Shown piece by piece: positions 1 to 11,695 of a stretch of 64,000 bases of DNA. The notes beneath the pieces were generated by a model that was not told the origin of the DNA, made no database searches, and saw only the letters and a program-made list of their open reading frames with translations. Origin of the DNA: Clostridiales bacterium Firm_14 (GTDB lineage Bacteria; Bacillota; Clostridia; Saccharofermentanales; Saccharofermentanaceae); assembly GCA_001604135.1 (NCBI GenBank), contig LVAT01000008.1, positions 124,001-188,000 of the forward strand, read 5' to 3'. The translations under genes and the position numbers were made by a program. How positions within the stretch are numbered: the first letter of the stretch is position 1; each line of letters starts with the position of its first letter.

Positions 1-1604
1 ACGGCAACAGCGTATTCAGCTTCGGCAACAACCGCGCGAGAATATCCGACCCCAACAAGGATAAGGTTAAGTTCTCCGACGTTGCCGGTTCTGTTGAAGA
101 GAAGGAAGAACTCCAGGAGATCGTTGATTTCTTGAAGAATCCTAAGAAGTATCAGCAGCTCGGAGCAAAGATCCCTAAGGGTGTTCTCCTTTACGGTGCA
201 CCGGGTACAGGTAAGACATTGCTTGCAAGAGCCGTAGCAGGTGAGGCAGGCGTTAAGTTCTTCTATATCTCAGGTTCCGACTTCGTCGAAATGCTCGTCG
301 GTGTCGGTGCTTCACGTGTAAGATCACTCTTCGCCGATGCCAAGAAGGAAGCTCCTTCGGTAGTATTCATCGACGAGATCGATGCTGTCGGCCGTAAGAG
401 AGGTGCAGGCCTCGGAGGCGGACAGGATGAGCGTGAGCAGACATTGAACCAGATCCTTGTTGAGATGGACGGCTTCGATGTTAACTCCAACGTAATCGTC
501 ATGGCAGCTACGAACCGTGTAGACGTTCTTGACCCCGCACTTCTCCGTCCGGGCCGTTTTGACAGACGTATCATGGTCAACATGCCTGACGCTGATGAGC
601 GTGAAGCTATCCTTAAGATCCATGCAAGAAAGAAGCCCCTCGCAAAGGACGTTGATCTCCACGAGGTTGCTCTTTCAACTGTAGGATTTACGGGAGCTGA
701 CTTGGAGAACCTTCTTAACGAAGCAGCTCTCATGACAGCACGTCATAATAAAAAAGAGATCACAATGCAGGAGATCACTGATGCTACTTTCAGAGTTCAG
801 ATGGGTCCCCAGAAGAATTCCAAGAAGCTCAGCGACAAGGTTAAGCGCCTTACTGCTTACCACGAAGCAGGTCACGCAGTCGTTCTCCGTGCTACATCAG
901 AGTTCGAGAAGGTTGACCGTGTAACGATCATTCCTGCAGGCAGAGCAGGCGGTTTTACTGCTTATAAGCCAATCGAAGATACTGACTTCTACACAGAGAA
1001 GATGCTCCTCGATACCATCAAGATGTCTTTGGGCGGCCGTGCCGCAGAAGAAGTATTCCTTGGCGAAGTATCCACAGGTGCTTCATCTGACCTGCAGCAG
1101 TGCAACAACATCGCGAAGAACATGATCAAGCGTTACGGTCTTTCCAAGAAGTTCCGCAACATGGTATTCGGCGATGAGAATGAGGAAGTCTTCTTAGGCT
1201 ACTCAATGGGTCAGGTCCAGAGCTATTCTGACCAGACTGCAGCTGCAATCGACGAAGAGATCAAGTACATCATCGATACATGCTATGCAGAAACAAAGAG
1301 GATCCTTATTGAGAAGAGCAACGTTGTTCAGGGTCTTGCTACAAGACTTATAGATAAGCTCACAGTAGACGGTCCTGACTTCGAGAAGATCTACGTAGCT
1401 AACGGCGATCTCGCAGCTGTCTATCCTCAGGATTATTCAGGCATCGACACAACACCTGCACCTGTTGCTCCTGTTGTCGAAACTGTAACTGAACCTGAAC
1501 CTGCTGATCCTGTCCAGCCTTCTTATGCTGATACAAGCATCAAGGATAAGCCGACAGTCGATCACAGCAGTGAAAACGAGATCGATCCCGGCCCGACCGA
1601 CTGA
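1..1604 (+). CDS. ftsH: ATP-dependent zinc metalloprotease FtsH, 5' truncated by window
   Basis: Membrane-anchored AAA+ protease that degrades unfolded membrane and short-lived regulatory proteins. The reading frame is open from base 3, and its first visible residues match the stretch just before the AAA domain, including the FSDVAG motif. The N-terminal membrane part is therefore outside the window, and the first in-window start-like codon (TTG at 132) is not the start. Walker A GAPGTGKT is at 195-218, Walker B FIDEID near 370, the second region of homology follows near 510-560, and the zinc-binding HEAGH is at 861-875. The C-terminal 60 or so residues are a Pro/Glu/Asp-rich tail that looks disordered. 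A terminator follows directly, so this is the last gene of its unit. Confidence 0.97.
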
Positions 1605-1657: not shown

Positions 1658-1799
1658 AAATATTTTTAGCACTTGAAAAAATATAATCGAACAATACTTA
1701 TTAAGTTGTTTTTACTCATGTTATACTAAAGATGTTTAAAAACCGGCTTTGATTGATTTTTCTATAAAAACTTTTTTGCTTAACAGAGGAGACAAATTT

Positions 1800-3651
1800 A
1801 TGACCAGGACCGTATCGAGGATTGCGGCAGTTTTACTGTCGCTAGTAATTGTTTTTGCTTTATTTCCGGGTTTGAAGATTAATGCTGCAGAAATAGTAGA
1901 TCAAGGTGTATGTGGTGACAATGGCAGCAACGTAACTTGGACATTAGATAATCAGGGCACGTTGACTATATCCGGCACAGGAGCTGTGAGAGACTACACA
2001 ACAGCTAGTACAAGCAAATCACCTTTTTTTTCAACATACCGCTATTTCTAAAGTGGTGATAGAAAATGGGGTTACTCATATTGGCAGTTATTTCTTTTAT
2101 ATGTGTTCAAACATTATCGAAGTTTCAATACCTAACACTGTAACTTCGATAGGCAAAGCTGCTTTTGATAGATGTGCTAAGCTAGCCAGCATAAGTATTC
2201 CTGATAGCGTGACATCTATTGGCGAATATGCATTTGAAGGTAATTCAAGCCTTATGAGCGTTAAATTATCTAATAATTTAACATCTATTGCTGCTAATAC
2301 TTTTGTTAATTGTTCAAAACTTAAGTCCTTAACAATACCTGAGAGTGTAACTTCTATTGGTAGATATGCTTTTTATTGTTGCGGTTTTACCAGCATAATA
2401 ATACCTGAAAGCGTACAAACATTAGGCGACGGTGTTTTTAGCGGATGTAGTAATCTTACAACCCTTATAGTCAGTCAAGAACTATATGAGAACTACCCGA
2501 ATGTGATCAATACCGTTGAGCAAAAATCGATCCAAGTCACTTATGATGCCACATACACAACAAGTACCTCTGGAGGATCGATCTCAGGCGATGCAAAAAC
2601 TAATGGAACGAATGAGATAACTGTTAAACCTGATGAGAATTATGTTGTTGATAAAATTGTTTTTTCTGTCAAGGATAAAAACGGTGCCGATGTAATCCAA
2701 ACATTAACACCTACCAACGGAAAATACATTATGCCTACTTATGATTTCAAGAATTGGACCGGCGACTGCAAGGTAACCGCATCTTTTAAATTGGCCGAAT
2801 ATACGGTCGTTTTCAAAGACTCAGATGATAAAGAACTACAGTCAACCAATGTGACAGCCGGATCGATGCCTTCCTATACCGGAGCAATTCCTACCCGGAA
2901 ATCAGATAATCCGAGTTATTACTATGAGTTCAATGGATGGGCGCCTGCCATTACAAAAGTAACAGGACCTCAGACATATACTGCTCAGTTTATAAAGAAA
3001 GATGTCGAGTTTAAGGTAACTTTTAATGATCTTGACGGAATTGAGCTCCAGTCAGGAAATGTTAAGTATGGCGGCGTTCCCGTATATTCCGGAAAGACAC
3101 CTGAAAAGGCAGAATCTGAGACTTCTACATTTGTTTTTGACGGTTGGACTGACGGAGCGAATATTTACACTTTAACCGGCGGCCTTCCTGAAATAACAGC
3201 TGCAGTAACATTTACACCTGTCTTTAAAGAAATCATCAAGCCTGTTTATACTGTCGGCGAAGTAAAAGGTGACGGTATAAATTCTGATATCGTTATTGAT
3301 GTTCACAGAAACGTAGATGATGAGAACTGTATCGACTACTTCAGTAGCGCAACAATCGATGGCACTGAAATGAAGGTCAATGACCAGTACACTGCGACAA
3401 AGGGCAGTACGATCATAACGATCAAGAAAGATTATCTGAGCACAATGACTGCAGGTGAACACGAGGTCAAGATCACATTCAGTGACGGCTCGATATCGAC
3501 CAAAGTAACGGTAGCAGCCAAGGCTAATACAAATGTGCCTGCTACAGGAGAATCAACAGCAGTTTCAACATATACCGGTCTGGCTTTGATCGTTGCTGCA
3601 TGTGTATGCGGCGCAGGATTTGTATATCTTAAGAAGCGCAAAGAAGCGTAA
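1800..3651 (+). pseudogene. BspA-like leucine-rich-repeat surface protein, frameshifted in a T8 run
   Basis: The gene starts at ATG 1800 behind a GAGGAG site, with a signal peptide (hydrophobic core about residues 10-24, cleavage near INA-AE). Frame 1 stops at 2049-2051. The continuation is open in another frame to 3651. Reading seven T instead of eight at 2024-2031 joins the frames into 616 residues and restores the family consensus (SPFFQHTAISKVVIENGV). After the junction come LRR_5 (BspA) repeats to about 2470, then two or three InlB/Flg_new-type repeats (FNGW, FDGW motifs), and a C-terminal VPATGE, hydrophobic helix and KKRK, a sortase-like or membrane anchor. Such proteins mediate surface adhesion. 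The shift may be a sequencing error, a true mutation or phase variation. Codon use is more A+T-rich than in ftsH. Confidence 0.78.
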
Positions 3652-3685
3652 AGCAGCATAATAAAGCGCAATTATTTTAAATTGT

Positions 3686-3717
3686 AAGAGGTTGCCCGCA
3701 TAGGACAACCTCTTTTA
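3686..3717 (+). terminator. Rho-independent terminator after the BspA-like gene
   Basis: Stem AAGAGGTTG with CAACCTCTT, extended by CCC/GGA, loop GCATA, then a TTTT run. It is a close copy of the ftsH terminator, differing mainly in the loop. Confidence 0.82.
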
Positions 3718-3735
3718 GTTTTATGTTCTCACCGA

Positions 3736-3763
3736 GAAGTAAAGCTTTGCGAAGCTTTACTTC
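3736..3763 (-). terminator. Perfect 12-bp hairpin at the end of the displaced prfC 3' end
   Basis: GAAGTAAAGCTT and AAGCTTTACTTC flank a TGCG loop. On the minus strand the hairpin overlaps the last codons and stop of the prfC remnant, so it may be that allele's original termination structure. No good T tract follows, so terminator function is uncertain. Confidence 0.4.
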
Positions 3764-3879
3764 GAATTAATATTTTCGAAACTGAGCTTAAATTTCTCGT
3801 TGTGATCTATTGCCCAGTCGACTGCCCATTCGGATTCGAAGAGAACAACCGGCTCGTCGTCTCTGTCAAAAACGAGGAG
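3757..3879 (-). pseudogene. prfC: Displaced second copy of the prfC 3' end (41 codons including stop)
   Basis: Read on the minus strand, this fragment encodes the last 40 residues of peptide chain release factor 3 and the same TAA stop as the intact prfC at 10091-11695. Aligned base by base with 10091-10213 I count 13 differences in 123 positions. All fall in third codon positions, and 12 are silent (the exception is Phe for Leu). Similarity stops sharply at 3879. It is therefore not a decayed duplicate but the end of another functional prfC allele, in direct orientation to the intact gene and separated from it by the bacteriocin island. Confidence 0.9.
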
Positions 3880-3940
3880 AACGGGTGTAATTATCAGCCC
3901 TAAATAATTCTTTTCAACCTTTTTTGTCCCCTGAAATTTT

Positions 3941-3976
3941 ACTTTATCCCTGGATTTTTTACTTTATCCCTGGATT
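3941..3976. repeat. Tandem 20-bp direct repeat near the left island edge
   Basis: The unit ACTTTATCCCTGGATTTTTT is followed directly by ACTTTATCCCTGGATTT, nearly two copies. The stretch 3880-4154 around it holds no convincing gene. It contains this repeat, a candidate promoter, and a strong ribosome-site-like GGAGGTG at 4071-4077 followed by only a two-codon frame (4085-4093). Confidence 0.7.
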
Positions 3977-4021
3977 TATCAAAATTTGTTGACCAGCAAA
4001 TGCCCCCGTGGTACTTTGTGG

Positions 4022-4049
4022 TTGATTATTGAATTGTTGGATATATATT
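4022..4049 (+). promoter_or_regulatory. Candidate promoter of the bacteriocin gene
   Basis: TTGATT, 16 bases, TATATT, about 105 bases before the bacteriocin start, in A+T-rich sequence where such matches are easily found by chance. Confidence 0.3.
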
Positions 4050-4154
4050 ATTTTTTCGACATTTGAATATGGAGGTGCAGACCAATGAATTAAATAGTCA
4101 TATCAGTTTTTTGTTTTAGTAGCATGGGTTCATAATGTTAATAGGAGAATTAAA

Positions 4155-4508
4155 ATGAAAAAAGGTATTAGAAAAAGTATAGTCTCAACTATTGCAATTA
4201 GCACTTTGATAGTTGCTACGATGGGAATTGGAATTGCGAGTGCAAAAACGGTGCATCCACATGGTGAAGATTATGATGAATGGACATATTATTCCAGTTT
4301 TAATCCTTTTCTATGGAAAAAGAGCAGTCATTCTAATTACTGGTCGATTGAGGATCATACATCTACAGCAGAAGTTGGTAATTATGGTAAAGTCAAAGCC
4401 TCTGCTAACGCGAGATGGACTTCCAAAGCTGTTGCTTATGGAGACGATGGCACGGCCAAAGCCTGGTACAATAATACATCGGATTTGGGTTCAGTCTTTG
4501 GTTTCTGA
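4155..4508 (+). CDS. Lactococcin-972-like bacteriocin precursor
   Basis: Secreted 117-residue precursor. ATG 4155 follows an AGGAG site at 4143-4147. Residues 1-30 form a Sec-type signal peptide (Lys/Arg N-terminus, hydrophobic core, cleavage after IASA). The mature 87 residues have the lactococcin-972 family pattern: a tryptophan near the start, SNYW followed by a histidine-bearing HTSTAEV strand, a central glycine, a KASANARWTSKAVA strand, and a closing AKAWYNN. Lactococcin 972 is an unmodified Sec-secreted bacteriocin that inhibits septum formation in sensitive cells by binding lipid II. The next two genes are the usual partners of this family, which supports the call. The mature part is longer than the 66 residues of lactococcin 972. 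Target range is unknown. Confidence 0.8.
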   Translation: MKKGIRKSIVSTIAISTLIVATMGIGIASAKTVHPHGEDYDEWTYYSSFNPFLWKKSSHSNYWSIEDHTSTAEVGNYGKVKASANARWTSKAVAYGDDGTAKAWYNNTSDLGSVFGF

Positions 4509-4534
4509 TACGAATTATTAGCAATTGAGTAATT

Positions 4535-6634
4535 ATGAAAGAAAACATATTACGGGTTTTGCTTTCTATATTCATTGTTTGTACTTTTTTTGCAGTTTAT
4601 CAGAATAGTGCTCAAAGCTATTCTGATACGATAATTGACGGACTAAGTCAATTCTCTGTAAAAAGTGATCTGACGGCAGATGAGGCTTCAAGACAAATAC
4701 TGTCTGAAGCTGATTCTGTCTGTTTTGATATACTCGTTGAAGACTATGAGATGATTAATGGCGAAGGTCATTCCGTGTTTTATAAGACGAATAACACAGA
4801 TGATTTTATCTCAATTGCAACCTCAAAGGGAAGTATTAGATTGGATCAGGATGAAAGCTTCTCGAACGCAATATATGGCAATAGTAATAAACAGTATCAG
4901 TTGTTAACTACATCTGATAGCAAGATGATAATTTTCCCCTTTGAAGAATTCTGCAAGAGAGGAAAAAATATTTCCGATTTTACATTGTATTGTAAGACTT
5001 CAGATAAGGAGATTGTATTTGCATCACTAAAACAGCTTGGTTTTGAGATAACCGGTTATACTGATATAACCGCTGTCGTCAGTACGAACAGTACGATCCA
5101 GATAGTTCCCGGACTGATATATTTGCTGGCTGTTCTTCTTTATACTCTTCATAATGCAAAAATGAGCACATTGATGAGAATGGACGGTTTCTCAATAATA
5201 GATATAACCGCAAGAGAGATTGCCGGACTGTTGCCCTGTGGGGTTATAGCTTTTCTGATCAGCTTCCTGTTTTCTGCTCTGTATGTGGGTCTTAAAGTCA
5301 GGATTTCAGTGATCGACTATTTCGTAAGCGGGCTGGGGATATTTAAGAATGCGTTATATATTTTTACATTGGCGATAATAATAAGGCTTGTATTCAATTA
5401 TTTTTTCTGCAAAGAGAAGTATATAAAGGGTGCTTTGCCAAGTAATATTATGTATTTCATGATATCGATTATCAAAACGCTGGCAATTGTTTTGATGATA
5501 ACGTCTATATCTGCTTTTGTCTCAGGCGTTTTTCTTCACAATATAGGAATATACCTGTCGTTAAAAAAATACTCAAACAAAATGGAAGGACTTGTATATT
5601 TCACTCAGATTAAAGGCGGTATTGAGCAATGTAATCTGAGCGAGGCAAGATTTGCCCCCAACCTTATGGATTTCTATTATGATGCTGTGAATAATTATGA
5701 TGCAATTGTATGTAATACGTATGATTATTGGCTTGATGATAATGAATTGCCCCTTTATATAGATAATGCTAAAGCCGGGTTTGGGCCATCGATTGAAGTG
5801 AATAATAATTATCTGAAAGAGAATGAAGTTTACGATCTCGAAGGGAACAGAATCTATGAAGAGTCTCTTGATCCGAATTGTCTGACGATTCTGATTCCTG
5901 ATGATTATCAGTGGGATGAACAGTTGCTTATAAGGTATAATGGTATAGATTACTATCCTGACCTGAAAGTTGTTTTTAAAGAATATGATTCACAACGGTC
6001 TCAATTGTATGTCTATCTGCCAGGAGGAATAGGAAATAATCAGGGAATAATATCACCTGCTCCTGCAATAAAAGTAGTTAATGATTATTCGCTGGAGAAA
6101 GATTGGCATTTAAAATATAATTTGCTCCTGAACATTTTATATGGAAGAACCATGTTCAGAACTCATACTGATAATCCTTCAGCAGAAATTGCTCCGTTAT
6201 TGAAAAAATATGACTGCCAGGACATCATAGACGGCATAGTTCCTCTTGAAACAGAACTTAATAAAAGAATCGAGAATTCCTGGAAAAGCGTATTGTCTTC
6301 TCTACTGATCCTTTCAGTATTAGTATTTGTAACAGCAGTTACGACTTCTTTTACATCAGATTTCTATTGCCGGAACCGAAGATATCTGATAGCTGCCAGG
6401 GCATTAGGCGGGTATTCATTTATCGGAACGTTCAGATTCCATGTTCTCGTGTTGTGTTTGGAATATTTAATTGTTTTTATTGTATCTGCAGTAACATCAT
6501 TTAACACCGATACGGTGTGGGTGACATTAACAATCACTCTGATCATTGTTGCGTCAGATCTTATAACTAACATTTTGAGATGCCGGCTTCAGCTTAAGAA
6601 AAATGTTTATCAGATATCCAAAGGAGAAATGTGA
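4535..6634 (+). CDS. Lactococcin-972-type bacteriocin-associated integral membrane protein (immunity/permease)
   Basis: A 699-residue membrane protein. It has one N-terminal helix (about residues 5-23), an external domain of some 160 residues, four helices between about 185 and 335, a second large external domain (about 340-580), and three more helices near 590-610, 634-655 and 660-685. This layout and the gene order fit the 'bacteriocin-associated integral membrane protein' family found beside lactococcin-972 homologues, and it resembles a permease of the MacB/FtsX type in outline. With the downstream ATPase it probably forms the ABC complex giving immunity, by removing or blocking the bacteriocin. 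Its ribosome site is weak, and it begins 26 bases after the bacteriocin stop. A role in export is less likely, because the bacteriocin has its own Sec signal. Confidence 0.7.
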   Translation: MKENILRVLLSIFIVCTFFAVYQNSAQSYSDTIIDGLSQFSVKSDLTADEASRQILSEADSVCFDILVEDYEMINGEGHSVFYKTNNTDDFISIATSKGSIRLDQDESFSNAIYGNSNKQYQLLTTSDSKMIIFPFEEFCKRGKNISDFTLYCKTSDKEIVFASLKQLGFEITGYTDITAVVSTNSTIQIVPGLIYLLAVLLYTLHNAKMSTLMRMDGFSIIDITAREIAGLLPCGVIAFLISFLFSALYVGLKVRISVIDYFVSGLGIFKNALYIFTLAIIIRLVFNYFFCKEKYIKGALPSNIMYFMISIIKTLAIVLMITSISAFVSGVFLHNIGIYLSLKKYSNKMEGLVYFTQIKGGIEQCNLSEARFAPNLMDFYYDAVNNYDAIVCNTYDYWLDDNELPLYIDNAKAGFGPSIEVNNNYLKENEVYDLEGNRIYEESLDPNCLTILIPDDYQWDEQLLIRYNGIDYYPDLKVVFKEYDSQRSQLYVYLPGGIGNNQGIISPAPAIKVVNDYSLEKDWHLKYNLLLNILYGRTMFRTHTDNPSAEIAPLLKKYDCQDIIDGIVPLETELNKRIENSWKSVLSSLLILSVLVFVTAVTTSFTSDFYCRNRRYLIAARALGGYSFIGTFRFHVLVLCLEYLIVFIVSAVTSFNTDTVWVTLTITLIIVASDLITNILRCRLQLKKNVYQISKGEM

Positions 6635-6635
6635 T

Positions 6636-7271
6636 ATGCCAATAGTGTCACTAAAAAATATCTACAAGAGTTTTAAGGATAAAGTGATATTTAAAGACTT
6701 TTCGCTTGATGTGGAAGAAGGCGAGTTTCTGTCAATTTCAGGTGCGAGCGGGAAAGGGAAGACAACACTGCTTAATATTATTGGTTTACTTGAGAAACCT
6801 GATTCAGGCGATGTGTTTTTGTTTGACACCAGGAACGAGAGTTTTGGAAGCAAGAAAGCAAGAGACATAAGAAGACACCGGTTGTCATACCTGTTTCAGA
6901 ACTACGGGCTTGTAGATAACGAGACTTGTAAGTTTAATCTTAATCTTGCATTGGAGTTCTCGGACTTGAACCGGGAGCAGAAGAAAAAAGCAATCTCAGA
7001 AGCTCTTACAAGTGTTGGGTTGGAAGGGTTTGATAACAGAAAAGTATTCTCCCTGTCAGGAGGAGAGCAACAAAGAATCGCACTTGCAAAAATAATACTT
7101 AAATCCCCTGAGCTGATTCTGGCTGATGAACCGACAGGCAGTCTTGATGCAGATAACAGGGATTATGTGTTATCAATCCTTAGGAAACTTAATGATGAGG
7201 GGAAGACTATAATAATGGTGACACATGATGTAAAGGTGGATTCATGCGCAAAGAAACATATTTGTTTATAG
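6636..7271 (+). CDS. ABC transporter ATP-binding protein, lactococcin-972 group
   Basis: A 211-residue ATPase. ATG 6636 was chosen because AAGGAG lies at 6621-6626 and the protein then starts with the usual PIVSLKNIYKSF; an earlier start at 6603 would sit inside the previous gene. Motifs in order: Walker A GASGKGKTT, Q-loop LFQNYGLV, signature LSGGEQQR, Walker B LILADEPTG and switch histidine MVTHD. It is of the MacB/LolD type that pairs with long membrane proteins with large external domains. It starts two bases after the membrane-protein stop and overlaps the next gene by 28 bases, so the three are translated as a unit. The C-terminus is short, ending soon after the H-loop. Confidence 0.85.
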   Translation: MPIVSLKNIYKSFKDKVIFKDFSLDVEEGEFLSISGASGKGKTTLLNIIGLLEKPDSGDVFLFDTRNESFGSKKARDIRRHRLSYLFQNYGLVDNETCKFNLNLALEFSDLNREQKKKAISEALTSVGLEGFDNRKVFSLSGGEQQRIALAKIILKSPELILADEPTGSLDADNRDYVLSILRKLNDEGKTIIMVTHDVKVDSCAKKHICL

Positions 7272-7684
7272 GCATTATAGTTTTTGCATTTTTAGCTTCG
7301 TTAGGATTTGTCTTTAACTATAAAATCATAATTGTCAGCGGAGAATCTATGAGACCAAAGTATAGTGATGGGCAGATTGTTTTGGCAGACAGGTCATTTA
7401 ACAAAGAAGATATCGAGGTCGGCGATATTGTAGTCTTCAATGATAATGGAAATACCTGTATCAAGCGTGTGCTCGCCAAAGAGGGCGATACTATTAAACA
7501 GTGTGGCGGAAAGCTCTACATTAATGATATTGTAGAAGCTCCTTATAACACAAGTTGGGAAACCGAATTTGAACTAATGGAAAATGAGCTGTATGTCTGC
7601 GGAGACAATTACAACAATAGTATAGACAGCCGTACGTACGGACCTATTAAACTCGACGATGTTGAATGTATTGTCTGCAAATGA
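7244..7684 (+). CDS. Type I signal peptidase (S26), island-encoded
   Basis: A 146-residue membrane protease that removes signal peptides after Sec export. One N-terminal membrane helix is followed by the catalytic serine (S35 in SGESM), the general-base lysine (K74 in CIKRV) and the late box GDNYNNSIDSRTYGP. It is short but has every catalytic element. It lies between the bacteriocin ATPase, which it overlaps by 28 bases, and a lipoprotein gene, which it overlaps by ATGA. A dedicated peptidase for the bacteriocin precursor is a reasonable inference, but it could also serve general secretion. Confidence 0.9.
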   Translation: MRKETYLFIGIIVFAFLASLGFVFNYKIIIVSGESMRPKYSDGQIVLADRSFNKEDIEVGDIVVFNDNGNTCIKRVLAKEGDTIKQCGGKLYINDIVEAPYNTSWETEFELMENELYVCGDNYNNSIDSRTYGPIKLDDVECIVCK

Positions 7685-10020
7685 GATATTCGTATAGGAA
7701 AGCAAATAAAAGATATTACAGGACTCCTTTTAAACCGTTGATGGCAATGGTTACAGCACTATGTCTTGTTTTGCAGACGGGGTGTTTTGAAAGGAAAAAA
7801 ACAGATGAAAGCAATTCCGGATTGAAGTCCGGAGATATCATATCTGAAGATACTCCCTGGTTTGATTCCATGGTAATTGAGCTGGACGGCGGATATAAAG
7901 ACAATGGTGACGTTGAATATCTTGAACTGGAATATGTCGGATGTACTGATAAAGCACTAGTTATTCATTATAGCGGCAACTATGTTAAGAACAATGGTGA
8001 TTCCAGATATCTGATCGATGATATAGTTTTTGTTGATCCCGATACAGGAGAAGAGATTACTAGAACTGACATTTCCGGATATAGGTTGAATGGCAGTGAA
8101 ATCAAAAATATCAGTATAGAAAGCGGACTGGTGGTCTGCGAGATGAAAGTCAAAGATGACCTTACAGGCAAAAGGAATGACAAATGTTTGTTGATAGATG
8201 ATTTCGGTGAAGTAAACCTCAGAGATATGTCTGAATTAGATTTTGATGAGAATAAAACAGGCGAGTACTATATAGACGGATTTACTTATTCTTTATCATA
8301 TGATTTTGCCGGTGCCGGATATTCTGTTCGTGTAAAAACACCTGAAGGAAATGATAATTCTTTTGAAATTTCCGGGAATGGTACGAAGATTTATGATGTT
8401 AAGGCTTTCCTGCGTCTTGATGACGGAAAAATCCTTATACCAACATATACAGATAAAGGTTCTATGTATTTTGTATATGACCCACAGAGCAATGATCTTG
8501 AAAATGCTACTAAAAAATATAAGTTGCTTGACAAGGACTTCAATAAGATAAAAGGACACTGTATCGACTGTAATGCCGGATATGCCGATGCTGACAGCAT
8601 ATATGTGATAGATACAAGGGATAAGCGCGCAAAAGAAGTGTTTAACAGGAATTTTTGCAATATAATCTGTCCTGACTTAAGAAGTCTTATGGTGATAAGG
8701 GCTGATTCTTCCGATATAAAGCTTTTTGATATTAAGGGTAGTAACGATCCAAGGCATATTATTGAGACTGCTTGTATTTATTCTTTCAAGAAGGATGTTA
8801 TTAATCCTAATGCCGGGAAAACAGTAATTGAATTAGCAACGGGATATGATACGGTTCCTGATGGTATAGCGCAAGCCATTATTGACTATAATGCCAGGAA
8901 TGATACTAAGTGTTATGTCATAACATCAGGACGATATGTATTAGATTATGAAGATGTGACGGAGTCCGGTAATGATATTGCGTTTCTCAAACAACGGGCG
9001 GAAATATCGAATCAGATGGCTATAGATATCTTAAATGGCAATGGTCCGGACATGTATATAAATAACAGTTCAATTCATCAAATCAATAACGGCAACTGTC
9101 TCGTTGATATAACAGAAATCGCAAATTCACTTCCGGATGATCAATATTTTACCAATGTTATAAAAACTGCGTCTGTTAATGACGCAAATTACCAGCTTCC
9201 ACTGTCTTTTTTATTGACAGGAGTGCAAGTGAGTTCCAACAAGAATATTCCAAAAGATGGTGTTACATTGAAGGAGTGGCCGCGTTTTGTTAGTGAATAC
9301 TGCAATGGGATTGATCCTCTTTATATGAATAGGGATTATTATTTTATGATCCTTTATGCCAATATGAGTGACAAATTTATTGGTGCTGATGTTTTCACAC
9401 CAGACAATAAGGATTTATATGAACTTGCTGAATACTGTAAATATAATGTTTCTAAGGATGGGACTTCAGCTGATGATTATTTCAGTTCTGAGCAGGAGAA
9501 CATGATCAACGCGGTTTACTCTGTTATGGGTGGTATATATGATTATTTTGATGCGCTGCCCTCAAATAGCAAATCATCTTTTGTCGGGTTGCCTTCAACT
9601 GATGGTAGAGGCGTCGCATATATTCCCTCAGATTGTGTTGCCATATCTGCTGATTCAAAACATATAGATGAATGCAAGGAATTTGTGAAACTCCTGTTTT
9701 CTGAGAAATATCAGGAAATGCTTGCAGACTGTGGTGGAAATGTAGTGAACAGAAAAGCGTTTGAGTCAGGCTGTAAAAAATATCAGGAATACTTCAATAA
9801 TGATAAAGCAAATCGCATGGAGCGTGCTTTGCGTGATAGTGATATTGAAGATTATAAGAAAATTGCCAATAGCGCATCGCATGTGTTTGAAATCGACAGT
9901 CAGATGCTATTCATTGTAAGTGAAGAACTGAAGGCTTACTTCAGCGATCAAAAACAATATGACGAAGTTATCAAAATAATAGCTGACAAAGCTAAGAAAA
10001 TGTCGAGCGAGAACACATAA
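7681..10020 (+). CDS. Large island lipoprotein with solute-binding-like C-terminal half
   Basis: A 779-residue predicted lipoprotein. ATG 7681 overlaps the peptidase stop as ATGA; the possible start at 7666 lies inside the peptidase gene. A basic N-terminus, hydrophobic stretch and lipobox LQTGC place the lipidated cysteine at residue 35. Residues about 60-370 are rich in short beta-like repeats with Asp/Gly turns, perhaps a beta-propeller. From about residue 385 the sequence resembles family 1 extracellular solute-binding proteins (opening VIELATGYDTV, a central NGNGPDMYI, and a late EFVKLLFSEKYQEMLA). No transporter permease for it is nearby. Its job may be to sense or bind the bacteriocin or lipid II, or to protect the producer; this is inference. 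No homologue is recognised with certainty. Confidence 0.7.
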   Translation: MRYSYRKANKRYYRTPFKPLMAMVTALCLVLQTGCFERKKTDESNSGLKSGDIISEDTPWFDSMVIELDGGYKDNGDVEYLELEYVGCTDKALVIHYSGNYVKNNGDSRYLIDDIVFVDPDTGEEITRTDISGYRLNGSEIKNISIESGLVVCEMKVKDDLTGKRNDKCLLIDDFGEVNLRDMSELDFDENKTGEYYIDGFTYSLSYDFAGAGYSVRVKTPEGNDNSFEISGNGTKIYDVKAFLRLDDGKILIPTYTDKGSMYFVYDPQSNDLENATKKYKLLDKDFNKIKGHCIDCNAGYADADSIYVIDTRDKRAKEVFNRNFCNIICPDLRSLMVIRADSSDIKLFDIKGSNDPRHIIETACIYSFKKDVINPNAGKTVIELATGYDTVPDGIAQAIIDYNARNDTKCYVITSGRYVLDYEDVTESGNDIAFLKQRAEISNQMAIDILNGNGPDMYINNSSIHQINNGNCLVDITEIANSLPDDQYFTNVIKTASVNDANYQLPLSFLLTGVQVSSNKNIPKDGVTLKEWPRFVSEYCNGIDPLYMNRDYYFMILYANMSDKFIGADVFTPDNKDLYELAEYCKYNVSKDGTSADDYFSSEQENMINAVYSVMGGIYDYFDALPSNSKSSFVGLPSTDGRGVAYIPSDCVAISADSKHIDECKEFVKLLFSEKYQEMLADCGGNVVNRKAFESGCKKYQEYFNNDKANRMERALRDSDIEDYKKIANSASHVFEIDSQMLFIVSEELKAYFSDQKQYDEVIKIIADKAKKMSSENT

Positions 10021-10038
10021 TGGGGTATGCTAACGGTA

Positions 10039-10072
10039 TATTCATCTGCTTGGAAAACAGAGCAGATGAATA
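10039..10072. terminator. Hairpin between the island lipoprotein and prfC
   Basis: A perfect 12-bp stem (TATTCATCTGCT with AGCAGATGAATA) and 10-base loop between two convergent genes. Neither strand has a clear T tract behind it, so it may work weakly as a two-way terminator or protect mRNA ends. Confidence 0.5.
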
Positions 10073-10090
10073 AGAATTTACCGAGCATTA

Positions 10091-10213
10091 TTATTTTGAA
10101 TTTATGTTTTCGAAACTTAGCTTGAACTTCTCGTTGTGATCGATTGCCCAGTCGACTGCCCATTCTGACTCGAAGAGGACAACAGGCTCGTCGTCTCTGT
10201 CCAAAACGAGGAG
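10091..10213. repeat. Right-hand copy of the prfC 3'-end direct repeat
   Basis: The last 41 codons of the intact prfC, matched at 110 of 123 positions by 3757-3879 in the same orientation. It marks the right boundary of the island, which abuts the prfC stop codon. Confidence 0.88.
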
Positions 10214-11695
10214 TGAAGTTGAAGTGAGAGTCATTTCCTTGGGATCGAATCCTTCGACATCGGATTTAGCCCAGCGTGCAAGACGGTAGGGAAGTGCTGT
10301 TCTTACGATATCAACGTTATATTCAGACTTAAGTCTGTATTCCAAGACGTCGAACTGGAGGATACCGACAACGCCCATGACGTATGTCTCGGTACCGATG
10401 TTCGGCTGCTTGTAGAGCTGGACTGCGCCTTCCTGTGAGAGCTGTTCAATACCCTTTAAGAACTGCTTGCGCTTCATTGAATCCTTAGGTTCAACACGCG
10501 CGAAGTTCTCCGGTGCGAATACCGGGATAGGGTCGAATTCAAACTTTCTGTTGGTTGAAATGATCGTATCGCCGATCCTGAAGTTGCCGGGATCGAAGAT
10601 ACCGATAATGTCGCCTGCGTAAGCCTCTTCAGTGATGGCTCTGTCCTGTGCCATGAACTGCTGGGGCTGGGCAAGTGTGATCTTCTTGCCTGTGCGCATG
10701 AGGTTAACTGTCATGTTCTTCTCATACTGGCCGGAGCAGATGCGGATGAAAGCCATACGGTCTCTGTGTGAAGGATCCATATTAGCCTGGATCTTGAATA
10801 CGAAGCCGGAGAACATTGTATCTTCAGGCTCGACGGTGCCGTCAGTCGTGTGGTGCGGAGCAGGTCCGGGGCTCATCTTGAGGAAGTGCTGCAGGAAGGG
10901 CTCAACACCGAAGTTCGTGATAGCTGAACCGAAGAATACAGGTGTGAGTTCACCCTTTAAGACCTTGTCCATGTCGAGCTCGTCGCCTGCCATGTCAAGG
11001 AGTTCAATGTCGTTTCGAAGTGTCTCGAGGTGGCCTGTCATGAGCATCTCGTCGAGCTTCGGATCGTCGATGCCGGAGACGCTCTGTGTAACCATGGATG
11101 CACCATGGTCGTTGTTCTCGCGGTCGAAGAGAAGAACGTTTCTTGATTCTCTCTCATAAACGCCTTCGAAGTCGCCGTCTGTGCCGATAGGCCAGTTGAT
11201 CGGGACTGATCTGATGCCCAATACCTTCTCGAGCTCGTCCATGAGATCGAAAGGATTCTTGGCGGCACGGTCCATCTTGTTGATGAACGTGAAGATCGGG
11301 ATGCCTCTTCTTCGGCATACCTGGAAAAGCTTGATCGTCTGAGTCTCGACACCCTTCGCGCCGTCAAGGACCATTACTGCAGAGTCAGCTGCACAGAGCG
11401 TTCTGTAAGTGTCCTCTGAGAAGTCCTGGTGTCCCGGAGTATCAAGGATATTGATGTGGCAGCCGTCATATTCGAACTGCATTACTGATGAGGTTACTGA
11501 GATACCACGCTTTTTCTCGATCTCCATCCAGTCTGAAGTAGCGTGGCGTGCAGCCTTACGCGCTTTGACAGATCCTGCCTGATGGATGGCGCCTCCGTAA
11601 AGAAGGAGCTTCTCTGTAATCGTGGTCTTACCTGCGTCCGGGTGCGAGATTATCGCGAAGGTCCGGCGTCTTTTAATTTCGTCAACTGAATTCAT
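10091..11695 (-). CDS. prfC: Peptide chain release factor 3
   Basis: A 534-residue translational GTPase that releases RF1/RF2 from the ribosome after termination. GTP-binding motifs are in order: SHPDAGKTT, DTPGHQDFSEDTYRT and FINKMDR. The start at 11695 (MNSVDEIKRRRTFA) has a GAGGT site just before it; an upstream ATG in the frame at 11734 would add 13 unlikely residues. Its 3' end is the right-hand repeat of the bacteriocin island, so the final 41 codons may have come with the island. It is divergent from malQ, with 74 bases between the two starts. Confidence 0.95.
   Translation of the reverse strand: MNSVDEIKRRRTFAIISHPDAGKTTITEKLLLYGGAIHQAGSVKARKAARHATSDWMEIEKKRGISVTSSVMQFEYDGCHINILDTPGHQDFSEDTYRTLCAADSAVMVLDGAKGVETQTIKLFQVCRRRGIPIFTFINKMDRAAKNPFDLMDELEKVLGIRSVPINWPIGTDGDFEGVYERESRNVLLFDRENNDHGASMVTQSVSGIDDPKLDEMLMTGHLETLRNDIELLDMAGDELDMDKVLKGELTPVFFGSAITNFGVEPFLQHFLKMSPGPAPHHTTDGTVEPEDTMFSGFVFKIQANMDPSHRDRMAFIRICSGQYEKNMTVNLMRTGKKITLAQPQQFMAQDRAITEEAYAGDIIGIFDPGNFRIGDTIISTNRKFEFDPIPVFAPENFARVEPKDSMKRKQFLKGIEQLSQEGAVQLYKQPNIGTETYVMGVVGILQFDVLEYRLKSEYNVDIVRTALPYRLARWAKSDVEGFDPKEMTLTSTSLLVLDRDDEPVVLFESEWAVDWAIDHNEKFKLSFENINSK

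Follow-up and report, generated by a model that had tools for sequence, protein, structure and literature searches.

How can a bacterial core gene come to leave two different 3' ends in one locus? This question is raised by prfC, the gene for peptide chain release factor 3, in Clostridiales bacterium Firm_14 (family Saccharofermentanaceae; GenBank assembly GCA_001604135.1; genome G000 below). The stretch examined, referred to here as the window, comprises 64,000 nucleotides of contig LVAT01000008.1 (positions 124,001 to 188,000, forward strand), and plain coordinates refer to it. Read in the direction of prfC, the order is prfC, a putative bacteriocin cassette, a short second prfC end (the remnant), a gene for a BspA-type surface protein, and ftsH. 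The answer that we consider rather likely is that the ftsH-prfC interval is a gene-capture hotspot working without a recombinase of its own, by homology in a flanking gene on one side of the incoming DNA and an illegitimate joint at its distal side. The core features of the locus are:

132–1604, plus strand: 3' part of ftsH, the left core flank, convergent with prfC; the window begins inside the gene (open reading frame, ORF; convergence in relatives)
3757–3879, minus strand: remnant, the last 41 codons including the stop of the probably resident prfC allele (alignment, relatives)
10091–10213, minus strand: current, probably imported, prfC 3' end (comparison with relatives)
10091–11695, minus strand: prfC (peptide chain release factor 3), intact, the right core flank (ORF and profile matches)

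The two prfC ends lie in direct orientation, at 3757–3879 and 10091–10213, and align without gaps over 123 bp with 13 mismatches. All 13 fall on third codon positions and 12 are synonymous; the sole non-silent one is a Phe/Leu difference at codon 4 of the 123-bp stretch. Under random placement, the chance of 13 third-position mismatches out of 13 is (1/3)^13, or ~6e-7. Local alignment breaks off at either limit of the 123 bp, the pair is the sole long direct repeat within 3500–10400, and the DNA just downstream of the two ends is mutually unrelated. Matches to the prfC end in the 3.12-Mb genome were confined to these two copies. The right copy terminates an intact prfC of 534 aa on the minus strand (NF001964, 765.8 bits). 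Upstream of the left copy, in the sense of prfC, similarity to prfC is gone and the frame meets stops, so that this copy is a remnant of 41 codons. Because 13 of 13 differences are at third positions, both ends appear to have been under coding constraint until recently. A first-pass annotation, made from the sequence of the window alone, had described the pair with the same counts and had taken the left copy for the end of another functional allele rather than a decaying duplicate; the ungapped alignment reproduces the counts exactly, and the third-position bias agrees with that interpretation.

The interval between prfC and ftsH was surveyed in a set of 85 genomes of the genus, including that of Firm_14. 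The prfC end was matched in 72 of these, and 67 stretches were fetched from 64 of the 71 other matching genomes (all except G006, G010, G024, G027, G048, G070, and G076). In 25 of the 67 stretches, ftsH is located downstream of prfC and points towards it; two further stretches carry ftsH 14.5 kb from prfC in the other orientation, and in the remaining ones, some of which are short, no ftsH was seen within the stretch. Six of the 25 intervals are nearly empty, with 82–155 bp between prfC and ftsH (G044, G068, G056, G043, G012, and G026; 121 bp in G043 after counting its ftsH tail), and that of G082 comprises 280 bp with a tiny ORF. Single cargo was represented by a GH3 lipoprotein gene, the sole large gene in three intervals, and by an adenosine-deaminase-like gene, which stands alone in two. 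Other cargo included DUF/SUKH modules, choline-binding-repeat proteins, BspA, and an ATP-binding cassette (ABC) gene with a membrane-protein gene. Pairs of modules occur as well, namely ABC plus membrane protein with the deaminase (G009) or GH3 (G066), and BspA with GH3 (G072) or a DUF module (G005). With ftsH-prfC gaps of 82–155 bp in some relatives and different cargo in others, this interval is a hotspot of insertion for which genuine empty sites exist. The ftsH-side modules of G005, G009, G066, and G072 exist in related form without their partner modules in relatives, which suggests that the partners were added on the prfC side. The cargo-free relatives with ftsH directly beside prfC that the earlier annotation had proposed to look for are thus among the genomes surveyed.

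The C-terminus of FtsH in the relatives compared is a hypervariable low-complexity tail capped by a conserved PGP[ST]D end. In each of two genomes, G054 (L033/L034) and G053 (L035/L036), prfC is present as a divergent pair of full-length genes located on separate contigs, either by contamination or as real paralogues. These second copies were considered as remnants and rejected, being full genes on other contigs.

The question of which end is resident and which is imported was addressed by comparing 495 segments of prfC, each of 123 bp, with 23 relatives; 24 of the 29 loci L003–L031 were taken for the comparison of ends, and G066 was dropped as partial. The last 123 bp of the current prfC have a best match of 88.6%, the lowest of the 495 segments (counting itself, 2 of 495 reach this value or less). 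In all seven of the closest relatives, the corresponding final segment is ordinary (74–311 of 495 at or below), and segments of the current prfC starting at bases 1320–1380 are 94–95% like G060. The best match of the remnant is 91.9%, with 10 differences each from G005 and G072; in both of these genomes prfC is followed directly by BspA, and the remnant likewise adjoins BspA. Because the last 123 bp are the least relative-like part of the gene and the remnant is nearest to genomes with this arrangement, the current end was probably imported with the cassette, while the remnant would be the older, resident end. Which end matches the relatives had been asked in the first-pass annotation; by these figures, the remnant is the nearer of the two.

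Some further comparisons were set aside. A ranking in which 19 of 24 listed relatives were nearer to the remnant, 4 were nearer to the current end, and 1 was tied is biased, as it drew on the best 25 rows sorted by distance to the remnant, and was not used. Covariation of the ftsH tail with adjacent cargo was rejected as proof of exchange: genomes with common cargo have similar ftsH bodies as well, and G007 has a tail of the empty-site type. Covariation of prfC ends with the prfC-side module gave no clear signal.

Comparable scars are present in other genomes. The order in G013 (L032) is prfC, BspA, a first remnant of 31 codons, BspA again, a second remnant of ~24 codons, and an ABC/membrane-protein cassette, in which the signal peptidase gene is cut after ~46 codons and the large lipoprotein-like gene is missing. 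The first remnant shares with the second the upstream junction and the sequence of its first half, including a Trp-to-Arg change; its second half, the spacer, and BspA match the prfC side. The two BspA units are 90% alike over 1.8 kb and 82% over a further 0.8 kb. Because the first remnant combines the 5' part of the second with the 3' part of the prfC side, an unequal crossover between prfC and the second remnant apparently duplicated the BspA cargo gene. In G066 (L080), the last 22–24 bp of prfC (E 4.5e-6) are located exactly where the cassette meets the GH3 module. In G019 (L094), the GH3 gene is followed immediately by 21 bp of an ftsH end (DPGPSD-stop), at interval positions 326–346 past prfC. 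The DPGPSD-stop word and its close variants occur five times in 72,585 bases of intervals, four of these being the genes' own ends, and ten permuted words of the G019 ftsH end have no occurrence in the same bases. Judged by its sequence, this scar mirrors the prfC remnants on the other flank; it slightly strengthens the explanation by flank homology and slightly weakens a site-specific one.

A protein search with the last 40 residues in 188 genomes of the order (match in 149) revealed extra shortened prfC ends only in G000 and G013, and in both of these at the ftsH-prfC locus; this search is too coarse for scars of ~20 bp such as that of G066. The prfC-side joints are located at codon 494 (G000), at codon 503 (G013), within the last 7 codons (G066), and ~50 bp past the stop (G009 and G005). 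GGGG is common to both sides at the G009 joint and CAANCTG occurs at the deletion joint of G013, which is suggestive only.

No recombinase was detected among the 25 of 38 Pfam families listed for 41 ORFs (at least 80 aa) from 25 intervals, which included one DDE transposase fragment in the interval of one genome. Profile scans of the window cassette and of the G013 locus revealed no recombinase either, in line with the first-pass statement that the locus holds no integrase. The genome of Firm_14 encodes 7 tyrosine and 5 serine recombinases, none on the contig of the window, although an enzyme supplied in trans or lost since may have acted; for other genomes, the recombinase matches listed are part of the total. 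Viral, phage, and plasmid collections (plasmids: PLSDB) contained no close match to the prfC end, the seven phage or plasmid matches being below 60% identity. No coherent defence system was recognized among the 25 of 32 families listed in a defence-system scan, and no conjugation gene was found in the locus.

The following course of events would account for the locus. Donor DNA from another species of the genus, with the cassette immediately following that species' prfC 3' end, would have entered a resident with prfC followed by BspA. On the prfC side, ordinary RecA-type homologous recombination may have taken place around codons 475–500; on the distal side, an illegitimate joint would have linked the cassette to a point within the prfC end of the resident. 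Since prfC is made whole again by the incoming 3' end, such joints would cost little and could stack. The same route seems to be used from the ftsH side, as the scar of G019 suggests, and ends left behind could later serve as direct repeats, at which unequal crossing-over may have duplicated BspA in G013. The part of prfC that is unlike its relatives begins at approximately codons 475–500 (by eye, in 30-bp bins), and the remnant begins at codon 494. Capture by flank homology is favoured because the joints are scattered, ftsH is scarred as well, and no recombinase was found in the locus.

A number of points weigh against this course of events or against the roles assigned to the two ends. The imported prfC tract seems short, roughly 100–200 bp, with the same start region as the remnant, a coincidence expected of an integrase or of a donor in circular form; this is a problem because a linear donor could import kilobases. 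The five located prfC-side joints (that of G072 was not located) fall within ~175 bp, a suggestive hint at targeting, although some clustering would also be expected if long remnants are unstable repeats and joints inside cargo go unnoticed. An exchange anchored in ftsH would give the same map, and the ftsH tail of the window is also unlike its relatives. The G019 scar is just 21 bp long and emerged on re-examination of the ftsH 3'-end control, whose first reading (no ftsH scar) was abandoned when a 19-bp match in G019 turned out to be the DPGPSD-stop after GH3. The choice of the resident end rests on modest numbers: the current tail has 7 private differences against seven relatives, where the other 12 segments average 2.2, and 1 against all 23; the remnant has 4 private differences of its own against seven relatives; and at codons 498 and 529 variants rare in relatives are common to both ends. 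No donor genome for the cassette and the current end was found. A ComEC-family gene is present in the genome, but proteins of this family also match in 10 of 14 control genomes, among them that of E. coli, and are thus no proof of competence.

Some of these points would be accommodated by a circle, either a plasmid or DNA looped out between two prfC ends, which carried the cassette with a 3' fragment of prfC and was inserted in the manner of Campbell by one crossover in the shared 123 bp. Such an event predicts a single displaced end, reaching on its 5' side as far as the homology carried by the circle, as well as a short imported tract, and the prfC ends of G013 apparently did recombine with each other. 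We nevertheless regard it as rather unlikely: 123 bp at 89% identity are a poor substrate for crossover, PLSDB plasmids carry no close prfC end, and the cassette boundaries differ among G000, G009, and G066. The first-pass annotation had read the locus as the footprint of an element that entered the 3' end of prfC with a replacement end. An island with a replacement end is supported by the outlying last 123 bp; a site-specific element is at odds with the scattered joints and the ftsH scar of G019. An element of this kind, with its integrase lost or acting in trans, would have entered at about codons 494–498 and displaced the left copy. This is unlikely in view of breakpoints that are >100 bp apart between genomes with no common core seen (some remnants may be eroded), the lack of recombinases among the families listed for filled intervals and on the contig of the window, and the lack of close viral, phage, or plasmid matches, even if the replacement end and the remnant begin in the same region, the genome has recombinases of both types elsewhere, and newer modules seem to adjoin prfC (the window, G013, G005, G009, G066, and G072) as in tandem accretion at gene ends.

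If the prfC end, or prfC together with BspA, had been duplicated locally in tandem within the species and had then diverged, this would have a parallel in G013, where such a duplication seems to have occurred. We hold it to be very unlikely for the window, as a non-coding duplicate would not vary solely at third positions, the DNA downstream of the two ends is unrelated, and the remnant differs from other species at 10 positions, fewer than the 13 that separate it from the current end. That the locus is an assembly chimera of two strains is highly improbable: the draft consists of 45 contigs with 2.2% contamination, but the site is located inside a 300-kb contig, ~128–134 kb from its start, and the same kind of scar is present in the separate assemblies of G013 and G066. 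Capture by flank homology can also be carried one step further, to a notion that we consider quite doubtful: prfC or ftsH 3' ends would be portable handles with which cargo travels and is added serially, the newest beside the working gene, in an integron-like fashion without integrase, and the handles would let cargo amplify or loop out by unequal crossover. If this were true, a silently restorable gene end could be an entry port for cargo.

The DNA between the prfC ends is A+T-rich, with a GC content of 0.33–0.41 compared to about 0.48–0.53 in prfC. The cargo of the window comprises:

1749–3651, plus strand: gene for a BspA-type leucine-rich-repeat surface protein, the ftsH-proximal module (homologues adjoin prfC in G005, G072, and G013)
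3880–3936, no strand: distal end of the putative bacteriocin cassette, which meets the remnant at ~prfC codon 494 (junction comparison)
3937–3970, minus strand: GGGATAAAGTAAAA-N6-GGGATAAAGTAAAA, a paired direct repeat and presumably the agr/LytTR-type operator of the cassette
4155–4508, plus strand: 117-aa peptide with a signal-like start, candidate bacteriocin (ORF)
4535–6634, plus strand: membrane protein of 699 aa, probably a transporter permease or an immunity partner (ORF, homologues)
6636–7271, plus strand: ABC ATPase, TIGR03608, putative bacteriocin export (270.4 bits, cut-off 254.85)
7244–7684, plus strand: signal peptidase I, S26 (profile matches)
7666–10020, plus strand: 784-aa lipoprotein-like protein, C-terminal half solute-binding-protein-like (PF01547, E 4.4e-5, 24 bits, cut-off 26)

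The BspA-type gene at 1749–3651 is broken by a frame change near 2050, with the signal-peptide part and the repeats in different frames. The 117-aa secreted peptide has no family match above cut-off (its matches, E 0.014 and 0.036, are far below), and the family profile search gave no match for the membrane protein of 699 aa. Among 114 other genomes of the family, 5 possess a homologue of the latter; that of G013 is 78% identical and displays a weak match to DUF1430 (E 4.7e-5, below cut-off). The name of an A+T-rich bacteriocin cassette, given in the first-pass annotation, is therefore confirmed in its first part by base composition, while the putative label 'bacteriocin' is carried by the ABC subunit and the gene order. 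The cassettes of G009 (L084), G066 (L080), and G013 (L032) have kept the ABC and membrane-protein genes; the peptide and lipoprotein-like genes are absent, and the signal peptidase gene is mostly or wholly absent in comparison with the window. By gene content, these cassettes possibly represent orphan immunity without a toxin. Lipoprotein-like proteins of 720–820 aa, resembling that at 7666–10020 in length and start (by eye), are encoded at L122 (G000:C9:197446-206162), L125, L244, and L250. Their genes adjoin the operator repeat and small secreted peptides and form a recurring operon type.

The paired repeat at 3937–3970, two copies of GGGATAAAGTAAAA with a 20-bp period, is located near the distal edge of the cassette. 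With up to 3 mismatches allowed, 61 sites with the pair were found, spread over 16 of 85 genomes; a reversed-pattern control gave 0. The other sites in G000 are C6:177988, C9:201430, C9:206203, C9:284180, C9:286645, and C10:165561. A number of the other repeat sites stand upstream of genes or operons for secreted peptides or lipoprotein-like proteins. Six genomes possess two repeat sites ~2.46 kb apart; the repeat is followed by a LytTR regulator gene in 6/6 and by agrB in 5/6 (in the sixth, G010, the contig ends there), and regulator and kinase genes are present in all six. The agr genes of G000, which code for AgrB (PF04647, 5.6e-32), a GHKL kinase (PF14501, 2.6e-23), and a LytTR regulator (PF04397, 1.2e-14), are encoded together beside the operator. 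Presumably, the paired repeat is the operator of an agr-type bacteriocin regulon. Because the repeat of the cassette also precedes the LytTR regulator, agrB, and secreted-peptide genes, the cassette probably arrives pre-wired into the agr-type quorum sensing of its host. An alternative assignment of 3937–3970 as the terminus of an IS21-like insertion sequence was rejected, as the same pair precedes agr genes and genes for secreted peptides and lipoprotein-like proteins at other places in the genome; no transposase was seen in the ORFs read beside the paired-repeat sites.

A literature search for an ftsH-prfC hotspot retrieved no paper about it, to judge by the titles listed, which is weak evidence of absence. 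The systems most similar to parts of the locus are compared below. DUF1430 membrane proteins are presumably associated with lactococcin-972-type export loci. The cassette resembles these loci in that its ABC subunit, which scores above the TIGR03608 cut-off, is encoded next to a large membrane protein and a small peptide that is secreted; it differs in that its peptide has no family match above cut-off and in the extra genes for a signal peptidase and a large lipoprotein-like protein. Homology-facilitated illegitimate recombination was reportedly described by Meier and Wackernagel in 2003. Transformation is known to yield joints that are homologous on one side and illegitimate, at little or no homology, on the other (PMC6382021); the process is RecA-dependent. 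That work concerns transformation experiments, whereas our case is inferred from natural scars in a possibly competent genus. In proteobacteria, the entry site of SXT/R391 elements is the 5' end of prfC. These elements insert next to prfC (PMC8138268), and the window shares with them and other gene-end-targeting islands the prfC target, a gene that stays functional, and a replacement end brought in, the direction of exchange resting on modest numbers. The differences are the 3' rather than 5' end, the scattered breakpoints, and the finding of no integrase or conjugation gene in the locus. LytTR-regulated bacteriocin regulons such as PlnC/PlnD (PMC2714321) are alike in the repeat operator, the LytTR-type response regulator, and the secreted-peptide operons. 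Here, by contrast, an agr-type locus in a gut genus is involved, the likeness is one of description and not of operator sequence, and binding is only predicted.

Replacement flexible genomic islands display peaks of synonymous change at the boundaries of replaced islands (Lopez-Perez et al. 2014, PMC4033161), and a mostly synonymous substitution peak likewise marks the boundary of the exchanged island in the window. Those islands are replaced, whereas here a module was added and the old boundary stays inside the locus. Hotspots with variable cargo moved by homologous recombination in flanking core genes have been published as well (PMC5635113, 2017). They agree with the ftsH-prfC interval in the fixed core flanks, variable cargo, empty sites, the lack of any integrase seen, and perhaps the signs of exchange in a flanking gene, for which the candidate here is the prfC tail, an outlier within this genome against 23 relatives. 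In distinction from them, the joint on one side seems to be illegitimate, with part of a core-gene end left over, and such ends stack and recombine. Integrase-free hotspots have been argued mainly from many-genome statistics; here, the scar itself is kept, as two alleles of one core-gene end, and the empty, single, and multiple states in relatives make the order of events, the breakpoints, and the reuse of scars readable and testable. This locus looks like an unusually legible case of apparent integrase-free gene capture, in which stacked gene-end scars were reused for amplification.

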